Shown in pieces: positions 45,854 to 51,996 of a stretch of 64,000 nucleotides of DNA. This DNA is from Acidithiobacillus montserratensis. GTDB taxonomy: Bacteria; Pseudomonadota; Gammaproteobacteria; Acidithiobacillales; Acidithiobacillaceae. The translations under genes were made by a program, and so were the position numbers. The notes beneath the pieces are model-generated. The model saw only the letters and a program-made list of their open reading frames with translations, was not told where the DNA came from and did not search any database. The number at the start of each line of letters is the position of its first letter. Positions within the stretch are counted from its first letter, which is position 1. Location: positions 1 to 64,000 of the forward strand of contig NZ_JABBOU010000023.1 in assembly GCF_018853465.1 (NCBI RefSeq), in the 5' to 3' direction.

Positions 45854-45963
45854 ATGTCTAAATTAAATGCAAGGGCTTGGGATGCCATTTCCTTCAATGG
45901 CGCCTCTGTTTTCGGTGGGGAGACGGCGACGCCTATGATGTGGATCTGGTGGATTATCACTGA
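45854..45963 (+). pseudogene. Decayed HigB-type toxin upstream of higA
   Basis: In one frame bases 45895-45963 read QWRLCFRWGDGDAYDVDL, then VDYH and stop. This is the conserved end of HigB/RelE-superfamily toxins, where the family has DQWRICFRW and a terminal DYH. The upstream ATG at 45854 (MSKLNARAWDA) is in a different frame, and most of the toxin body (the GNRLEALKGDR-type region) is missing. The toxin is therefore truncated by deletion and frameshift. AT-rich DNA precedes it. Confidence 0.75.
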
Positions 45964-45975
45964 CAGGAGTGTGTG

Positions 45976-46269
45976 ATGCGTGAGCGAATAGAACCCATAC
46001 ATCCCGGGGAACACCTAGCGGAGTTTCTGGAGGACTATGCTATCAGCCAGTATCGGCTGGCGAAGGATATCCACGTACAGGCGCGCCGGATCAACGAGAT
46101 TGTGAAGGGGCAACGGGCCATCACTGCCGATACGGCGCTGCGTCTGGGGCGTTATTTTGGTATGTCAGCGCAGTTTTGGATGAATTTGCAGGGTAGTTAT
46201 GACCTTGCGCACGCCCTTGAGGAGCTCGGCAGCAGGCTTGAAAAAGAAGTGCATCCGCACGCGGCGTGA
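45976..46269 (+). CDS. higA: HigA-family antitoxin (orphan)
   Basis: 97 aa from ATG 45976 (AGGAG 6 nt upstream). IHPGEHLAEFLEDYAISQYR and LAKDIHVQARRINEIVKGQR form the helix-turn-helix of the VapI/HigA antitoxins, and YFGMSAQFWMNLQGSYDL is the typical closing motif. It begins 12 nt after the remnant higB stop, the normal HigBA order. With no toxin left, it may persist as a DNA-binding regulator or a guard against related toxins. Confidence 0.9.
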   Translation: MRERIEPIHPGEHLAEFLEDYAISQYRLAKDIHVQARRINEIVKGQRAITADTALRLGRYFGMSAQFWMNLQGSYDLAHALEELGSRLEKEVHPHAA

Positions 46270-46471
46270 TGCCGGGGTATGGTGTCACTTATATGGCCGT
46301 TTGCGGGACACGGCAGGATGGGGAGATTTGAGATACCACAGCCGTCACATAAAGCGTCAAATAATCTGGATTCTACAAAAGGGAATAGTGAAGTAACGGA
46401 TTTCGAAACTCGGGAGACTCTGGTTTCTGGCCTGAATAATTCGAGTTTTGTGGTCCTCAATCTTCACTAGT

Positions 46472-47260
46472 TTACTTCCTTATTCTCAATAGACTTTTTT
46501 CATTAAAGTTAATAATAGCTGTATCTTGCGTAGTATAGTTTTGAAAGGAAAAGAACAGTTGCCTAAACTCATTGTTACTGTAATTTGTTAATGAATATAT
46601 TTTTCTGCCATTGTGGTTGTATGAAAACAAAGTAAAATGTTCTGTAATTTTCTGATATCTCATTTTATATTTTTCTTTTGCTTTCTTTTCTCCTGCTGAA
46701 AATGGAGAGTGATCCCACGGAAACCAGTCAAAAGCGCTATCCATTGAACATCCAGCACAATCTCCATCAGTCCTATATGCTACCCAATATTTTCCATCTG
46801 GACTTTCCAATGTGAAACCTGCGCTACTGTCCTCACCTTCTATGGGTCCGCCAACGATTTCCAGTCCACGTGGACCGAGAAAGTAGCCAGTCTCACCAGC
46901 AACATATAGTGCTAATATTTTTGACTGCAATTTCGTAATGAAAAAATTATATCTTCTTTTTAATGTTGGTGGTGCATAATAGTTCTCATCTTTCGTTGTA
47001 TAGGTTTTTACTGGAATGACCATGACTGGTATTTTTTCCAGCCCAAATGTAGCATATCCATACGGTATAGGTTTGTGTAGTTGTTGACTTGTTATATTGT
47101 TTGGAACAGGCTGATAAATATAATCATTAGCAATGGCTGGTTCTACGATCATAAAAGACGCGATATAAGTTAAACAAATTGCTACACATTTATAGCTGAT
47201 AATGCTGCTAATTGTGCAGTGTTTAAATCTTGGAGAAAAGTAACAGAAATGATCATGCAT
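46472..47260 (-). CDS. Secreted protein of unknown function (possibly DUF4850-like)
   Basis: 262 aa, AT-rich codons. The first ~44 residues contain a hydrophobic signal or anchor (about 22-44, ending EPAIA). The body holds ETGYFLGPRGLEIVGGPIEG, a cysteine pair in DGDCAGCSMDSAF, and aromatic-rich ends. The GPxG...G and CxGC...A pattern reminds me of DUF4850 proteins, from memory only. Last in the minus-strand accessory cluster, 24 nt after the CFI-box gene. Confidence 0.6.
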   Translation of the reverse strand: MHDHFCYFSPRFKHCTISSIISYKCVAICLTYIASFMIVEPAIANDYIYQPVPNNITSQQLHKPIPYGYATFGLEKIPVMVIPVKTYTTKDENYYAPPTLKRRYNFFITKLQSKILALYVAGETGYFLGPRGLEIVGGPIEGEDSSAGFTLESPDGKYWVAYRTDGDCAGCSMDSAFDWFPWDHSPFSAGEKKAKEKYKMRYQKITEHFTLFSYNHNGRKIYSLTNYSNNEFRQLFFSFQNYTTQDTAIINFNEKSLLRIRK

Positions 47261-47284
47261 AAGTATTATTATCCAAGTTTCTAG

Positions 47285-47626
47285 TTAAATAATTTTTATA
47301 ATTAAATCTAATACTTTTCTTGTCGCATAAGATCGATGTTGTTTCTTTGCCAACCAAGTTGCTATCGGAGGCGACAATAGGTAATAATATTTTATCGCAA
47401 TTCTACCTAATCTGTATGGTCTCAACCTAGTATCTCTGAAATGGCGGAGTTCCTGAACTTCTGGCGCCATAGTATCTCCATATACAGCGGTTGCTATAAA
47501 GCATGGACTAACTGCACGTCCATATCGCCTTTTCTCTTGCGCAATTCTCTTCTTACGTGCTGTTTCAGATTCGCCGCGTGGATTAAAAATTGTTATTGGT
47601 GTTTTTTTTCTTCCGCGTTTTGCCAT
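47285..47626 (-). CDS. CFI-box C-terminal domain protein
   Basis: 113 aa from ATG 47626, which has AAGGAG 6 nt upstream; the open frame to 47818 overlaps the nuclease gene and is not used. A basic N-terminus (MAKRGRKKTPITIFNPRG) leads to CFIATAVYGDTMAPEVQELR, the CFI-box motif, followed by FRDTRLRPYRLGRIAIKYYY and SPPIATWLAKK. CFI-box domains end many unrelated bacterial proteins and are thought to have a targeting or processing role. AT-rich; 17 nt after the nuclease gene. Confidence 0.75.
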   Translation of the reverse strand: MAKRGRKKTPITIFNPRGESETARKKRIAQEKRRYGRAVSPCFIATAVYGDTMAPEVQELRHFRDTRLRPYRLGRIAIKYYYLLSPPIATWLAKKQHRSYATRKVLDLIIKII

Positions 47627-47643
47627 AACGGGCTCCTTGTATG

Positions 47644-48195
47644 CTATATATCTATTAAGTCTGTATGCTTCAAAAGAAGAACACCAGTGCTTTTCGCAAG
47701 ATTTTTTGCTGCGTAAGTATAACCTGTAGTTGTTACAACAATAGCTATGTTTGCGTGGTAATAACTCATGGCTGTATGAGCCTCTTGAACCGCTTTTACA
47801 CCAACGCTTTTTGACCACTGCTTACATTGAATAACTGATTTTTTATTACCTTTCACTGCGATGATATCTGCGCCAAAATCCCCTGAAGATTTTGTCATTT
47901 TTGTTGTCCAACCATTGTTCTCCAGAAGTGCCGCACAGAAATTCTCGTATTGCCCTGGGGTGAGTTGCATGGGATTTTCGGTCCCTGCTCCTAATAACGC
48001 GGATCTGATTTTTGATTTACGCTTTGCTTTCCACAGTAGCCGCGCAGTGACAATCCCTACGGCGATGAACAGGATGAGCAGCACGCCACCCCCGCCTATT
48101 GCGTATAGTATCTTGATTAATCCGAACAACGCTCCGAGGATGATTAGTGCGCCGATGGCCTCACTGGTACTCCCTTTCATCTTGCGACGGGGCAT
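47644..48195 (-). CDS. Membrane-anchored Mrr-type restriction endonuclease-like protein
   Basis: 183 aa from ATG 48195 (AAAGGA upstream), preferred to the ATG at 48255, which has no ribosome-binding site. Two transmembrane helices (about 11-33 and 36-54), a basic linker, then an Mrr catalytic domain of the PD-(D/E)xK fold: SSGDFGADIIA with D110, then VIQCKQW with Q123 and K125. The conserved AVQEAHTAMSYYHANIAIVV follows. The cytoplasmic nuclease would be held at the inner membrane. It is AT-rich compared with flanking core genes and is part of a four-gene minus-strand cluster. Confidence 0.8.
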   Translation of the reverse strand: MPRRKMKGSTSEAIGALIILGALFGLIKILYAIGGGGVLLILFIAVGIVTARLLWKAKRKSKIRSALLGAGTENPMQLTPGQYENFCAALLENNGWTTKMTKSSGDFGADIIAVKGNKKSVIQCKQWSKSVGVKAVQEAHTAMSYYHANIAIVVTTTGYTYAAKNLAKSTGVLLLKHTDLIDI

Positions 48196-48241
48196 TACTA
48201 TATTATCCTTTGCCAATTTACCATGATAAGATGAAAAAATA

Positions 48242-48667
48242 TCATTGTGAACCATCAGAATGATAATAGTAATGGTTATAATCGTGTAACCTTATATCTA
48301 CCCTTGCCGCATTGCGAGTGTATAGATATTCATTGTAGGCGCGTTGTTCACAAATTCTTATTTGGCGGCGAACGCAGGCCTCACGGTCAACTGCATATGT
48401 GCAGTGGGGAGTAATCATGTTATGACAATTCCAGATAGCCTGGTTGTATGACTGTGTTGACTGTAAATTTTGCATACAATGGTAGAAATATCTGGTTCCA
48501 GGTTGTAACCCATCAGCTTCACACTGTTGCTGATTCGCAGCAATTTGCTGTGCTCTTTGTTGCGCAGCATACGCTGTAAGATCAGCACATCCTGAAACGG
48601 AGAGTGTTATCATAACAATAAAGAGAACTTTCTTTTTATAAAAAGATATGTTGTATCCTCTCTGCAT
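48242..48667 (-). CDS. Small cysteine-rich lipoprotein
   Basis: 141 aa. The signal peptide ends in a lipobox VSGC (C27), so the mature protein is likely lipidated. The mature part has paired cysteines (CEADG, HCMQN, NCHNM, HCTYA, EACVRR, ICEQR) that probably form disulfides in the periplasm, and a His/Tyr-rich tail. Not recognised as a known family. First gene of the minus-strand accessory cluster, 46 nt before the nuclease gene. Confidence 0.65.
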   Translation of the reverse strand: MQRGYNISFYKKKVLFIVMITLSVSGCADLTAYAAQQRAQQIAANQQQCEADGLQPGTRYFYHCMQNLQSTQSYNQAIWNCHNMITPHCTYAVDREACVRRQIRICEQRAYNEYLYTRNAARVDIRLHDYNHYYYHSDGSQ

Positions 48668-48716
48668 GCTTTTTCTGGTTCCTCTGTTATTTTAAGTGAG
48701 TAACACGATTGTTGTT

Positions 48717-48753
48717 ACCCGGAGACAGGACACAATGTGTCCTTTTGTCGGGT
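48717..48753. repeat. Imperfect palindrome with perfect 8-bp core
   Basis: AGGACACA (48727-48734) and TGTGTCCT (48736-48743) are separated by one base. Outer arms ACCCG (48717-48721) and CGGGT (48749-48753) extend the dyad. A second small dyad, GTAACA / TGTTAC, lies at 48700-48718. It sits in the 186-nt gap between the PIN antitoxin end and the lipoprotein start, so it may be an operator, an RNA hairpin or a mobile-element end. Confidence 0.6.
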
Positions 48754-48853
48754 GGACGTTGGCCCGTCTCTCGGTAATGTACTGATTCATCACATAACGG
48801 GCAAGGGCAAAAACCGGGTATCATGAGACAGAACGATGATGCCGGAGATTGTG

Positions 48854-49108
48854 TTATTGACCGGGCATTTCATCGCCAGGGTGTGGCGGCTCATTTCCGA
48901 CCTTATCCAAGATGGACAAGATGTCGGCGGGATTTGCTCCGCCTGCCCGCCGCTTGAAAAAGTCAGCGGCTGTTTCCACGGCCCCAACCTTCTCGGCCAG
49001 TGCCACAGTAATCCACAGGTTGAGGGATACACCGTCCTCACGAGCAAGCCGCTGTGCGGCTGTTTTAAGGGACTGGGGCAGCTTGAGTGCGTAGGCAGCT
49101 TTGTTCAT
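48854..49108 (-). CDS. Ribbon-helix-helix antitoxin (HicB-like/CopG type)
   Basis: 84 aa. The N-terminal YALKLPQSLKTAAQRLARED followed by GVSLNLWITVALAEKVGAVE is a ribbon-helix-helix DNA-binding unit; the acidic, Gly/Pro-containing C-terminus would cap the toxin. Its start overlaps the PIN toxin stop by four bases (ATGA). The pair is in toxin-first order. Confidence 0.85.
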   Translation of the reverse strand: MNKAAYALKLPQSLKTAAQRLAREDGVSLNLWITVALAEKVGAVETAADFFKRRAGGANPADILSILDKVGNEPPHPGDEMPGQ

Positions 49109-49530
49109 TTGCGAACCTCCATCAATAGTTGCTTAGGGAGCCATAGCGGCAGGCTAAAACGCTTTGCCGCCATAGCGAAGTGTGTCATGTTGAAAGTGAC
49201 CAGGGCGTCAGCGTTACCGTTGACGGCAACATCCAAGACCATCTCGTCATTTGGGTCGTTCAGCTGCGGCCGCCACTGAAAATGAATCTCCACGGGTAGG
49301 CAAGCACTCGCCAGCGCATTCAGGAGATGGTCTATCTCTGAAATCGATAGCCCGGAAACTTCCCGTTGTTCGTCCCTCTTTAGCACCGCCTCATATTCCA
49401 AAAAGAGCGCAGGTGTCGCCAATACCCCCACTTGGCCAAGGGCAACCAGCCGTAACGCGGCATGACTGGCCCCTGAGCGGCTACGCAGGGCGCTGGCCAA
49501 GACAGATGTGTCGAGCACGACCTTAAGCAT
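49105..49530 (-). CDS. PIN-domain toxin
   Basis: 141 aa. VLDTSVLASALRSRSG carries the first PIN acidic residue (D7), with later acidic residues in LFLEYEAVL and DPNDEMVLDVAVNGNADALV; VTFNMTHF is typical of the PIN-family toxin component of COG1569 type. Probably a metal-dependent RNase inhibited by the overlapping ribbon-helix-helix protein. The start codon is 40-odd bases after an AT-rich stretch with a GATATC-centred imperfect dyad (around 49537-49548). Confidence 0.88.
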   Translation of the reverse strand: MLKVVLDTSVLASALRSRSGASHAALRLVALGQVGVLATPALFLEYEAVLKRDEQREVSGLSISEIDHLLNALASACLPVEIHFQWRPQLNDPNDEMVLDVAVNGNADALVTFNMTHFAMAAKRFSLPLWLPKQLLMEVRK

Positions 49531-49811
49531 ATCTAATACGATATCATAAAATCAAAAATGGATGCTATCCTTTCAGATTTTGGTTTATCCCAACAAAGGG
49601 ACCAAAAGCCCCGCAGAGAACTTTGCATCAGCCTGAGCTTGCAATGGGTGTAGGTCTATTTAATTCCCCGAAGTTTCTCCGGTTCCAGCCGGTTGATTTC
49701 GGATGAATGCCCTCCTCAGCGAGTCCTTGCGTTTTTCTTCTGGGTGCCCCGAGTTCGACAGTAAATCTCGCAACTAATTGGTATCGTTGATAAAGATTTC
49801 AAAACGCTCCA

Positions 49812-50369
49812 CTACAACAGCGTCAGTTGCTGAGAGGCAGCGGTTTTTTTTACCCGGAGGGCATGCAGAACCTCGTTTTGGCCATCGTGGATGGAAGACA
49901 CCCCGGATACGGGTGGGGCACCATTGAGACGGATCTGGTGATGTTGAATGCGGCGGAGCTGCTCCAGGGCGCGTTCCGGCGTCAGCCCGCTGTGACTCGC
50001 CCGTAAACGACTGCGCATGACCCGATGCAGAATCAGCGCCATGAAGCAGATCGCGGCGTGCGCCCGGATCCGGTCGGGCAGGCGGTGGTAGACCGGGCCG
50101 ATTTCCAGCTCCGACTTGAGCACCTTGAAGCCACGCTCGACGTCGGCGAGAGACTGATAGCGGGCCACGACCTCTGCCGCTGACAGGTCCTGCACATTGG
50201 TCACCAGCAGGAGCTTGCCATCCATGCGCTCCGCCCGCGTCCGTGCAGCTTCGTCAATAGCGTAGCTAAACTGCTGGGCGGCCATGTCCACCTGGATGAT
50301 GCGCGATAAATGCGCCTCGCAGACGGCATAGTAGAAGCGAGCCTTGGCCCCGCTGTTTAACAGCCTGTG
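49812..50369 (-). pseudogene. Truncated IS1634-family-like transposase
   Basis: The frame from about 50369 to the stop at 49812 encodes only the last part of a transposase: NSGAKARFYYAVCEAHLSRI, then KLLLVTNVQDLSAAEVVARY, VERGFKVLKSELEIGPVYHR and DRIRAHAAICFMALILHRVM. That is the C-terminal third of IS1634/IS4-superfamily transposases, with the catalytic Glu in VLKSELEI. The N-terminal two thirds are missing, and upstream the DNA switches to another small frame, so the element is dead. Confidence 0.8.
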
Positions 50370-50571
50370 AGCGTTCTTCGTAATACCGATGAATCTCCCC
50401 GTAGTACTGGCTTTCGAAGCATTCCGTGAAGCGCTGCAGAAATTCCAGGACTGTGACGGCGGCCTCGTCGGAGAGCGGTGGCATGGGTAGCTGGTCGTTG
50501 CAGGAATGCGCGATTATGGTGGCCTCCTCAGCGTGCGGCTTTGCGCCAGGCGGGTTGCTGGGCGGGGTCAT
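50370..50571 (-). pseudogene. Fragment of a small mobile-element-associated ORF
   Basis: From ATG 50571 the frame reads MPPLSDEAAVTVLEFLQRFT, then CFESQYYGEIHRYYEERSQ, after which it runs out of frame through the truncated transposase. The first part looks like a small conserved hypothetical protein seen near transposases; from memory only. The junction near 50370 marks a deletion or recombination point. Confidence 0.45.
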
Positions 50572-50580
50572 AAAGTTCAA

Positions 50581-51024
50581 GGGCTGAGCTCCGGTGCCGG
50601 GCTCAGGGTGCGGCGCGCCCCGTCAGCATGGGCGGTTCACTCCAAGGGGAAAGTCTGTAGCGGAAGTCCTGTCTCGTCTGCTGCATCTTCGCAGGCATTG
50701 CTCCAGGTGGTTGCGGATTTTTCCAGGAGATAAGGCTTCAAGCTGCCAGATTGAGCTAACAAATCGTTTATCTCGCGGCGCTGAATCCGAATGGTACTTC
50801 TCCAGCTATTGCCTCCTTTTTCTGGTTGCCATGCTCACTTGATGAGGTGCAACAACAAGAATGTCAGACGGCTTTTTAATTCGAGTTCCTCGGATGGAAG
50901 CGGCAAGCTGGTGGAGTATATCGGGACAATATCCAGCCACACCCTTGGCAACAATACATGGATACCGGTAGATTGCTCTGATGCCCTCTCCACTCGGTTC
51001 AGCCGCCACATATCCAGAGAAAAC
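50581..51024. other. 444-nt stretch without a supported gene
   Basis: Between the transposase remnant and the LysR start. The LysR frame stays open back to 50791, but those codons do not resemble a LysR N-terminus. No promoter, repeat or RNA was convincing; a CbbR binding site may be here but none could be placed. Probably remains of the accessory region plus the regulator's upstream DNA. Confidence 0.5.
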
Positions 51025-51996
51025 ATGACGCAAACCCTGCATTCTCTTTCACGCCATGTGACCTTTCGCCAGTTGCAGATATTTGCAGCCATCATCCGTA
51101 CCGGGAGTTTTACGGAAGCCGCCGACGAGCTTTTCCTGGCGCAGCCCACCATCTCGCTGCAAATGAAGAAATTGGGGGAGACCATTGGTCTGCCTTTATT
51201 CGAAAAAATGGGGAAGACCATCCGGCCGACGGGGGCTGGAGAGGACTTGTATGCGGCCTGTCGGGATTTGTTCCGTACTTTTGAGGACCTCGAGGCGCAA
51301 ATCGCCGACCGCAAGGGTATCCGCCGGGGAAAATTGCGTCTGGGGGTGGTGACGACGGCCAAATATATTGCTCCCGAGTTGTTGGCGGCTTTTGGTGTGC
51401 AATTTCCGGGCATTGAATTCAGTATGAAAGTCAGCAATCGGGATGAGATTATCCAACGCATTCAAAACGGCGAGGATGATCTGTATGTGATGGGGCAGGT
51501 ACCCGATGACGAAGTCGATGTAGAGTCAGTTCCTTTTGCCTTGAATCCGCTCACGGTCATGGTCCCGCGTGGACACCCATTGACCCGCCTGTACAAACCC
51601 GTGTCGCTGGCGGCCATTGCCGAGGCGCCTTTCCTGATTCGCGAGCCGGGCTCGGGGACGCGCCATGCTTACCTGAGATTGTTCGCAGAAAAAAATCTGC
51701 GGCCCCATATTGTCATGGAATTGAGCAGTAACGAGGCGATAAAGCATGCGGTGGCCAGTGGCCTCGGGGTATCCATTCTTTCCATCCACTCCCTGGCGCT
51801 GGAGGGGACTGGTGGTCCCATCGAGGTGCTGGAGGCAGAGGACTTTCCTATCTTACGCCAATGGTTTCTGGTGTATCCCAAGGGTAAACATTTGTCATCT
51901 ACGGCACAGAAGTTCCTGGACTTTTCCGTTTCCCAAGAGCAATTCATTACTGACCGACTGCTGCATCTGTGGCCGGAGTTGCGTCATCATCTCTGA
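51025..51996 (+). CDS. cbbR: LysR-family regulator, CbbR-like
   Basis: 323 aa from ATG 51025. N-terminal winged helix-turn-helix VTFRQLQIFAAIIRTGSFTE and ADELFLAQPTISLQMKKLGE; the effector domain has LRLGVVTTAKYIAPELLAAF, then DLYVMGQVPDDEVDVESVPF and LIREPGSGTR, all characteristic of CbbR, the activator of Calvin-cycle and carbon-concentrating genes. It is the likely regulator of dabB-dabA 2.4 kb downstream, although an SDR/AraC pair now sits between. The binding signal is expected to be a reduced-carbon metabolite. Confidence 0.85.
   Translation: MTQTLHSLSRHVTFRQLQIFAAIIRTGSFTEAADELFLAQPTISLQMKKLGETIGLPLFEKMGKTIRPTGAGEDLYAACRDLFRTFEDLEAQIADRKGIRRGKLRLGVVTTAKYIAPELLAAFGVQFPGIEFSMKVSNRDEIIQRIQNGEDDLYVMGQVPDDEVDVESVPFALNPLTVMVPRGHPLTRLYKPVSLAAIAEAPFLIREPGSGTRHAYLRLFAEKNLRPHIVMELSSNEAIKHAVASGLGVSILSIHSLALEGTGGPIEVLEAEDFPILRQWFLVYPKGKHLSSTAQKFLDFSVSQEQFITDRLLHLWPELRHHL

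Follow-up and report, generated by a model that had tools for sequence, protein, structure and literature searches.

A membrane Mrr-type nuclease gene and a free-standing CFI-box gene recur as an adjacent pair in Acidithiobacillaceae

In the 64,000-nucleotide stretch of Acidithiobacillus montserratensis DNA analysed here (the window), the gene of a membrane Mrr-type nuclease is followed by that of a small CFI-box protein, and the two genes stand adjacent, in three settings, in 3 of the 29 Acidithiobacillaceae genomes among the 115 genomes searched (that of the window, G002 and G017). We read the pair as a mobile two-gene module in which a nuclease tethered to the membrane may be controlled or positioned in trans by the CFI-box protein, with incoming DNA as the most likely target, and we assign this reading a probability of roughly 0.45.

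An AT-rich cluster on an island

The pair lies within a cluster of four open reading frames (ORFs) at 46472-48667, all on the minus strand, which encode in 5'-3' order a 141-residue lipoprotein (48242-48667), the 183-residue Mrr-type nuclease (47644-48195), the 113-residue CFI-box protein (47285-47626) and a 262-residue secreted DUF4850 protein (46472-47260). The longest ORF for the nuclease begins at 48255 and has 203 residues; the preferred ATG at 48195 leaves 46, 17 and 24 nt between consecutive genes. The one-strand layout and spacing described in an earlier sequence-only reading are borne out by the ORF list. That reading had also remarked that the cluster is richer in A/T than the core genes, which agrees with a GC content of 0.388 (38.8%, the average of the window being 54.5%), the lowest among 1237 sliding windows of the same length (mean 0.545, sd 0.035). 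GC content ranges from 0.35 to 0.45 in the individual cluster genes and from 0.55 to 0.63 in the surrounding toxin-antitoxin and transposase ORFs. Shine-Dalgarno-like sequences precede the cluster starts, the weakest by eye being that of the DUF4850 gene, and a promoter scan returned 13 candidates against 7.7 expected (sd 2.9), little above chance.

The cluster belongs to an island of 4996 bp (45896-50891) with a peroxiredoxin-glutaredoxin gene on one side and a LysR-type regulator gene on the other. In the nearest species searched (G016, with a neighbouring gene 97% identical), 170 bp occupy the place of these 4996 bp, and homology in blastn ends at 45895 and restarts at 50892; no direct or inverted repeat of more than 8 bases was found within 100 bp of either end. 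The toxin-antitoxin genes and the dead transposase noticed earlier at the flanks of the cluster are indeed present, namely a HigA-family antitoxin ORF at the island edge (45973-46269, plus strand; TIGR02607, E = 7.8e-29), beside which the ORF list contained no HigB-like ORF, a PIN-domain toxin-like ORF (49105-49530, minus strand; PF13470, E = 8.9e-22; TIGR00305), and a 159-residue ORF (49812-50291, minus strand) that represents the C-terminal fragment of an IS1634-family transposase and matches positions 345-482 of the 483 in NF033559 (E = 1.1e-41). The small ORF beside the PIN gene (48854-49108, minus strand), with a weak HicB match (PF05534, E = 0.01, 16.2 bits against a cut-off of 21), is probably its antitoxin.

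The two outer genes of the cluster are nearly private to this genome. The lipoprotein, recognised by eye from its lipobox VSGC, has a hydrophobic N-terminus and matches no Pfam family above the cut-off; it was found in 2 of the 115 genomes, its own and, as a 41-residue match, G013. The DUF4850 protein is a member of its family (PF16142, E = 1.4e-6, 28.4 bits against a gathering cut-off of 22.5) and carries a hydrophobic N-terminus and, by eye, an AIA-ND cleavage-like site; its gene occurred in 1 of the 115 genomes and in 1 of 321 genomes of the class, each time its own. Neither protein was found in the plasmid records searched, no DUF4850 protein in viral_contigs, and no mention of DUF4850 in the open-licence literature searched, a set without most subscription papers. 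Since these outer genes are not common to relatives, we rejected a four-gene system and take the nuclease-CFI pair as the unit; of the four-family co-occurrence put forward earlier, the part concerning the outer genes fell away and that concerning the inner pair, whose genes stand side by side in one constant order in three genomes, was upheld.

The membrane nuclease and the CFI-box protein

The nuclease belongs to the Mrr_cat family (PF04471, E = 6.4e-27, 94.4 bits against a cut-off of 21). Its AlphaFold2 model, built from a 33-row alignment (mean pLDDT 92), comprises two helices (residues 9-32 and 36-69) followed by a mixed alpha/beta domain, and Foldseek matched the model to AF1548, MspJI, AspBHI and Cdn1 at E < 0.001, with Hjc just above this value. 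The nuclease domain contains E84, D110, Q123 and K125, and both the catalytic D...QxK residues and the PD-(D/E)XK fold are present; D110 is conserved in 33/33, Q123 in 31/33 and K125 in 32/33 aligned homologs, and the residue numbers previously given for the last three fit the start at 48195. Basic stretches lie on the cytoplasmic side of the membrane according to the positive-inside rule, and because basic residues mark both the N-terminus and the segment that follows helix 2, the nuclease domain is predicted to be cytoplasmic, with the two helices forming a putative inner-membrane hairpin and both termini facing the cytoplasm. The earlier suggestion of a membrane-anchored Mrr-type nuclease is thereby supported by sequence and by the structure model.

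Several known systems resemble the nuclease in part. EcoKMrr and the type IV Mrr enzymes have the Mrr_cat domain and the PD-QxK site, the latter as described in PMC12707154, in common with it, whereas here the N-terminal winged-helix family had no match in the nuclease at E up to 1 (Pfam), a helical hairpin, predicted to lie in the membrane, occupies that place in the model, and a second gene accompanies the first. Zorya ZorD contains a related nuclease domain, and in a PADLOC scan of the four cluster proteins the nuclease alone gave a match, to the nuclease portion at the C-terminus of ZorD, but no ZorA/B or helicase is encoded among the four genes and the combination of ZorA and ZorB with ZorD or ZorE was not found in that scan. 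STAND (NLR-like) proteins with an Mrr_cat effector exist, according to PMC9122126, and are related through the nuclease domain, but no STAND partner is present among the four genes. The combination had been called unrecognised; PADLOC gave no named system for the cluster, in which the nuclease alone was matched, through its catalytic domain, and the literature searched on membrane Mrr nucleases contained no description of a membrane Mrr and CFI pair.

The closest nuclease outside the family is encoded on plasmid pACRY02 of Acidiphilium cryptum (52% identity over 113 residues). Such plasmid "restriction endonuclease" proteins share the size, layout and N-terminal membrane hairpin of our nuclease, and pACRY02 differs in that its 8.3-kb stretch lacks a CFI-box ORF. 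None of the five plasmid stretches examined, among 257 matching plasmid records, had a CFI protein within 2.5-4 kb of the nuclease gene; given these solitary relatives, the nuclease can do without CFI. The genome of the window also encodes a second Mrr-type protein of 316 residues with hydrophobic stretches (L043:1050-2000), whose gene comes next after a topoisomerase gene and for which a whole-genome search revealed no CFI partner.

The CFI-box protein has a basic N-terminus (MAKRGRKKTP) and a CFI box starting at C42, and it is a member of the CFI_box_CTERM family (NF041770, E = 1.7e-23, 82.2 bits against a cut-off of 40), with the difference that it has 113 residues and no further domain, while most relatives are longer. 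Three homologs were found. Its AlphaFold2 model is all-helical (pLDDT 85) and has no relative in the PDB by fold (best E = 7.9) or by profile; the best viral fold match, at E = 0.14, is a phage-encoded protein bearing an auto-processing chaperone domain. Hydropathy indicated no membrane segment in the CFI proteins of the three pairs. Across 113 aligned CFI domains (7 of 120 domain references being left out), C42, F43, I44, A45, T46, R64, G74 and Y81 are invariant.

At large, the CFI box is spread over many phyla and lies mostly at the C-terminus of longer proteins, many of them extracellular; neither the box nor NF041770 was mentioned in the open-licence literature searched, a collection lacking most subscription papers. 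Pfam and PADLOC scans covered 115 of the 121 distinct CFI proteins (three were too long or contained X, and three more were omitted). Among the 25 of 103 Pfam partner families that were listed, DUF11 occurred 13 times, fn3 12 times, CSD (cold-shock) 11 times, and Mrr_cat and VRR_NUC three times each. There were at least two TIR proteins (one ThsB_TIR, one TIR_2) and at least two dynamin-like proteins, both from one locus, these counts being lower bounds because 20 of the 115 proteins were scanned individually. At L054:3357-6859, two dynamin-like proteins with Sel1 repeats are encoded in tandem, each ending in a CFI box, and at L087:818-1588 an archaeal ThsB-type TIR protein has a CFI box at its end. 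HEPN-like motifs are plausible in three CFI proteins (L062, L070 and L102), with Pfam support below the cut-offs; two more matches to the HEPN-like pattern look like chance and were set aside.

One locus, L105, encodes an intact Mrr-TPR-CFI fusion with PemK and PIN-like genes upstream. A gene that appears SIR2-like by eye directly precedes this fusion (L105:2744-5234) and has no Pfam or PADLOC match. Two archaeal Mrr-CFI fusions (L088 and L095) keep the fold and lack Q-x-K, and because two of the three fusions are without it, they argue for a physical link and not for control of the nuclease. An enrichment of CFI proteins in PADLOC models was considered and dropped, since 115 neighbouring ORFs taken as a control matched 76 families against 26 for the 115 CFI proteins, many of the 76 (among the 25 listed) coming from one methyltransferase; as a whole, the CFI set shows no enrichment in defence models. 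Fusions thus link CFI to nucleases, and CFI is no general mark of defence.

Recurrence of the pair in relatives

Close matches in the two relatives share 55-61% identity with the nuclease and 55-67% with the CFI protein. The CFI gene is located 3' of the nuclease gene in all three genomes, with a spacing of 17 nt here and of 25 nt or an 8-nt overlap in the others. For both genes and all three comparisons, pS was 0.76-0.87 (saturated) and pN 0.24-0.35; because synonymous sites are saturated and non-synonymous sites are not, both genes have been maintained as proteins, and they are under purifying selection.

The gene after the CFI gene differs in each genome, encoding the DUF4850 protein here, a lipoprotein-like protein in G002 and a signal-peptidase-like S26 protein in G017 (E = 5.7e-32). 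Unrelated neighbours in relatives had been named as a reason to abandon the cluster, and they do occur at this downstream position, while the order of nuclease and CFI genes is kept. All three proteins in the slot have a hydrophobic N-terminal stretch, which in G002 lies at residues 43-67 of an ORF that may in fact start at a more internal position. At the beginning of this G002 ORF (L038:4046-4480), about 47 nt from around the start of the CFI gene are duplicated, which points to past recombination in the slot, much as though a cargo gene had been inserted there.

As to the surroundings, a TOTE conflict-system primase-helicase gene (E = 3.8e-100) lies 298 nt upstream of the pair in G002, and within about 5 kb of the pair in G017 there are a ParD-like antitoxin, an IS66/DUF6538 ORF and a recombinase-like ORF whose Phage_integrase match falls below the cut-off. 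The LysR-type regulator genes of the window (50791-51996) and of the G002 locus (L038:7725-8819) share 77% identity and have opposite orientations relative to the pair. In these two genomes no more than about 4 kb separate the pair from the LysR-type gene, the vicinity of which is possibly an insertion hotspot.

Beyond the family, the association is sparse. The genome scan retained 80 of 116 CFI relatives, and in these 80 CFI loci (674 kb) nuclease profile matches occurred in three, each beside or fused to CFI, where about 0.03 would be expected from the density in the class; only L105 is independent in this comparison, because L044 and L045 were found through their resemblance to the query. 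Nuclease and CFI matches were found together in 5 of the 321 genomes of the class, and the genome of the window alone has both on one contig, a survey in which genes on separate contigs of drafts may still be neighbours and a limited number of candidates was scored per genome. At E up to 1e-8, a CFI match was present in 16 of 398 genomes of the phylum; the ORFs around 4 of these 16 matches and around one phage locus, inspected by eye, included no Mrr beside the CFI genes. In viral_contigs there was no confirmed relative of the nuclease and one CFI locus, and among 50,697 phage records 10 had a distant nuclease match and one a CFI match. A phage origin of the cluster genes was rejected in view of this near-absence.

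Possible action of the pair and competing readings

We infer interaction, regulation and a defence role for the pair as follows. The nuclease, of the small PD-(D/E)XK Mrr type, would be held by its hairpin in the inner membrane with the catalytic domain in the cytoplasm, and the CFI protein, with its basic N-terminus and invariant cysteine, would be a soluble helical partner that supplies in trans a module which other proteins carry in cis at the C-terminus. It may control the assembly or the place of the nuclease and so keep the enzyme inactive as long as no foreign DNA enters through the membrane and no signal is perceived. A helical partner that governs assembly would be comparable to the tetramer-dimer switch of EcoKMrr, in which assembly governs the nuclease according to PMC12707154. 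The pair would travel on mobile or island DNA and acquire unrelated exported proteins downstream. A role against incoming DNA, one of two outcomes raised in the earlier reading, is plausible from the mobile-element setting and from the TOTE gene beside the pair in one relative; the other, cell death, would be just as hypothetical.

The most serious competitor, which we consider possible and yet less probable, holds that the nuclease acts alone, as a membrane restriction factor against entering DNA or as a mobile element's weapon against rivals, with the CFI protein as a passenger of three related islands. The solitary plasmid relatives, without CFI in 5/5 stretches, and the second membrane-type Mrr protein without CFI in the same genome speak for it, but three diverged genomes retain the pair in different surroundings, with purifying selection on both genes, and an intact Mrr-CFI fusion exists in L105. 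Those same solitary plasmid copies also tell against a toxin-antitoxin-like pair, in which the nuclease would harm its own cell and the CFI protein restrain it for the maintenance of mobile DNA. This arrangement would suit the small second gene, the tight spacing or overlap and a mobile setting amid toxin-antitoxin genes, but the CFI domain is very common in unrelated proteins, unlike a dedicated antitoxin, and the nuclease comes before its partner, toxin-first gene order being less usual in type II toxin-antitoxin pairs; moreover, neither core gene matched a type II toxin-antitoxin family in Pfam or NCBIfam. We regard this explanation as unlikely.

The exported or membrane-bound protein that follows each of the three pairs, and the presence of the Holliday junction resolvase Hjc among the PD-(D/E)XK relatives, would be in keeping with an envelope or DNA-uptake function, the nuclease working with exported proteins to process incoming DNA during transformation or repair; since those neighbours are mutually unrelated, and a housekeeping role is at odds with the patchy distribution (3/29) and the island setting, such a function seems quite improbable. 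Least credible of all is that AT-rich foreign genes gathered by chance between two core genes and share no function, which would account for the private outer genes and for an island of unrelated pieces but is contradicted by the recurrence of the inner pair in three genomes.

A broader proposal, which goes beyond the mobile two-gene module and which we find doubtful, is that CFI boxes serve bacterial and archaeal effectors in general as control or docking modules, fused in cis to Mrr, VRR-NUC, TIR and dynamin-like proteins, perhaps to HEPN proteins as well, and supplied in trans here, so that the pair would be a two-gene defence system of an undescribed type. A free-standing CFI box beside one nuclease in a small putative operon is in any case a good place to learn the role of CFI, and should phages or plasmids be restricted by the pair, it would represent a new membrane-tethered layout of Mrr nucleases and provide the first function of a CFI box.
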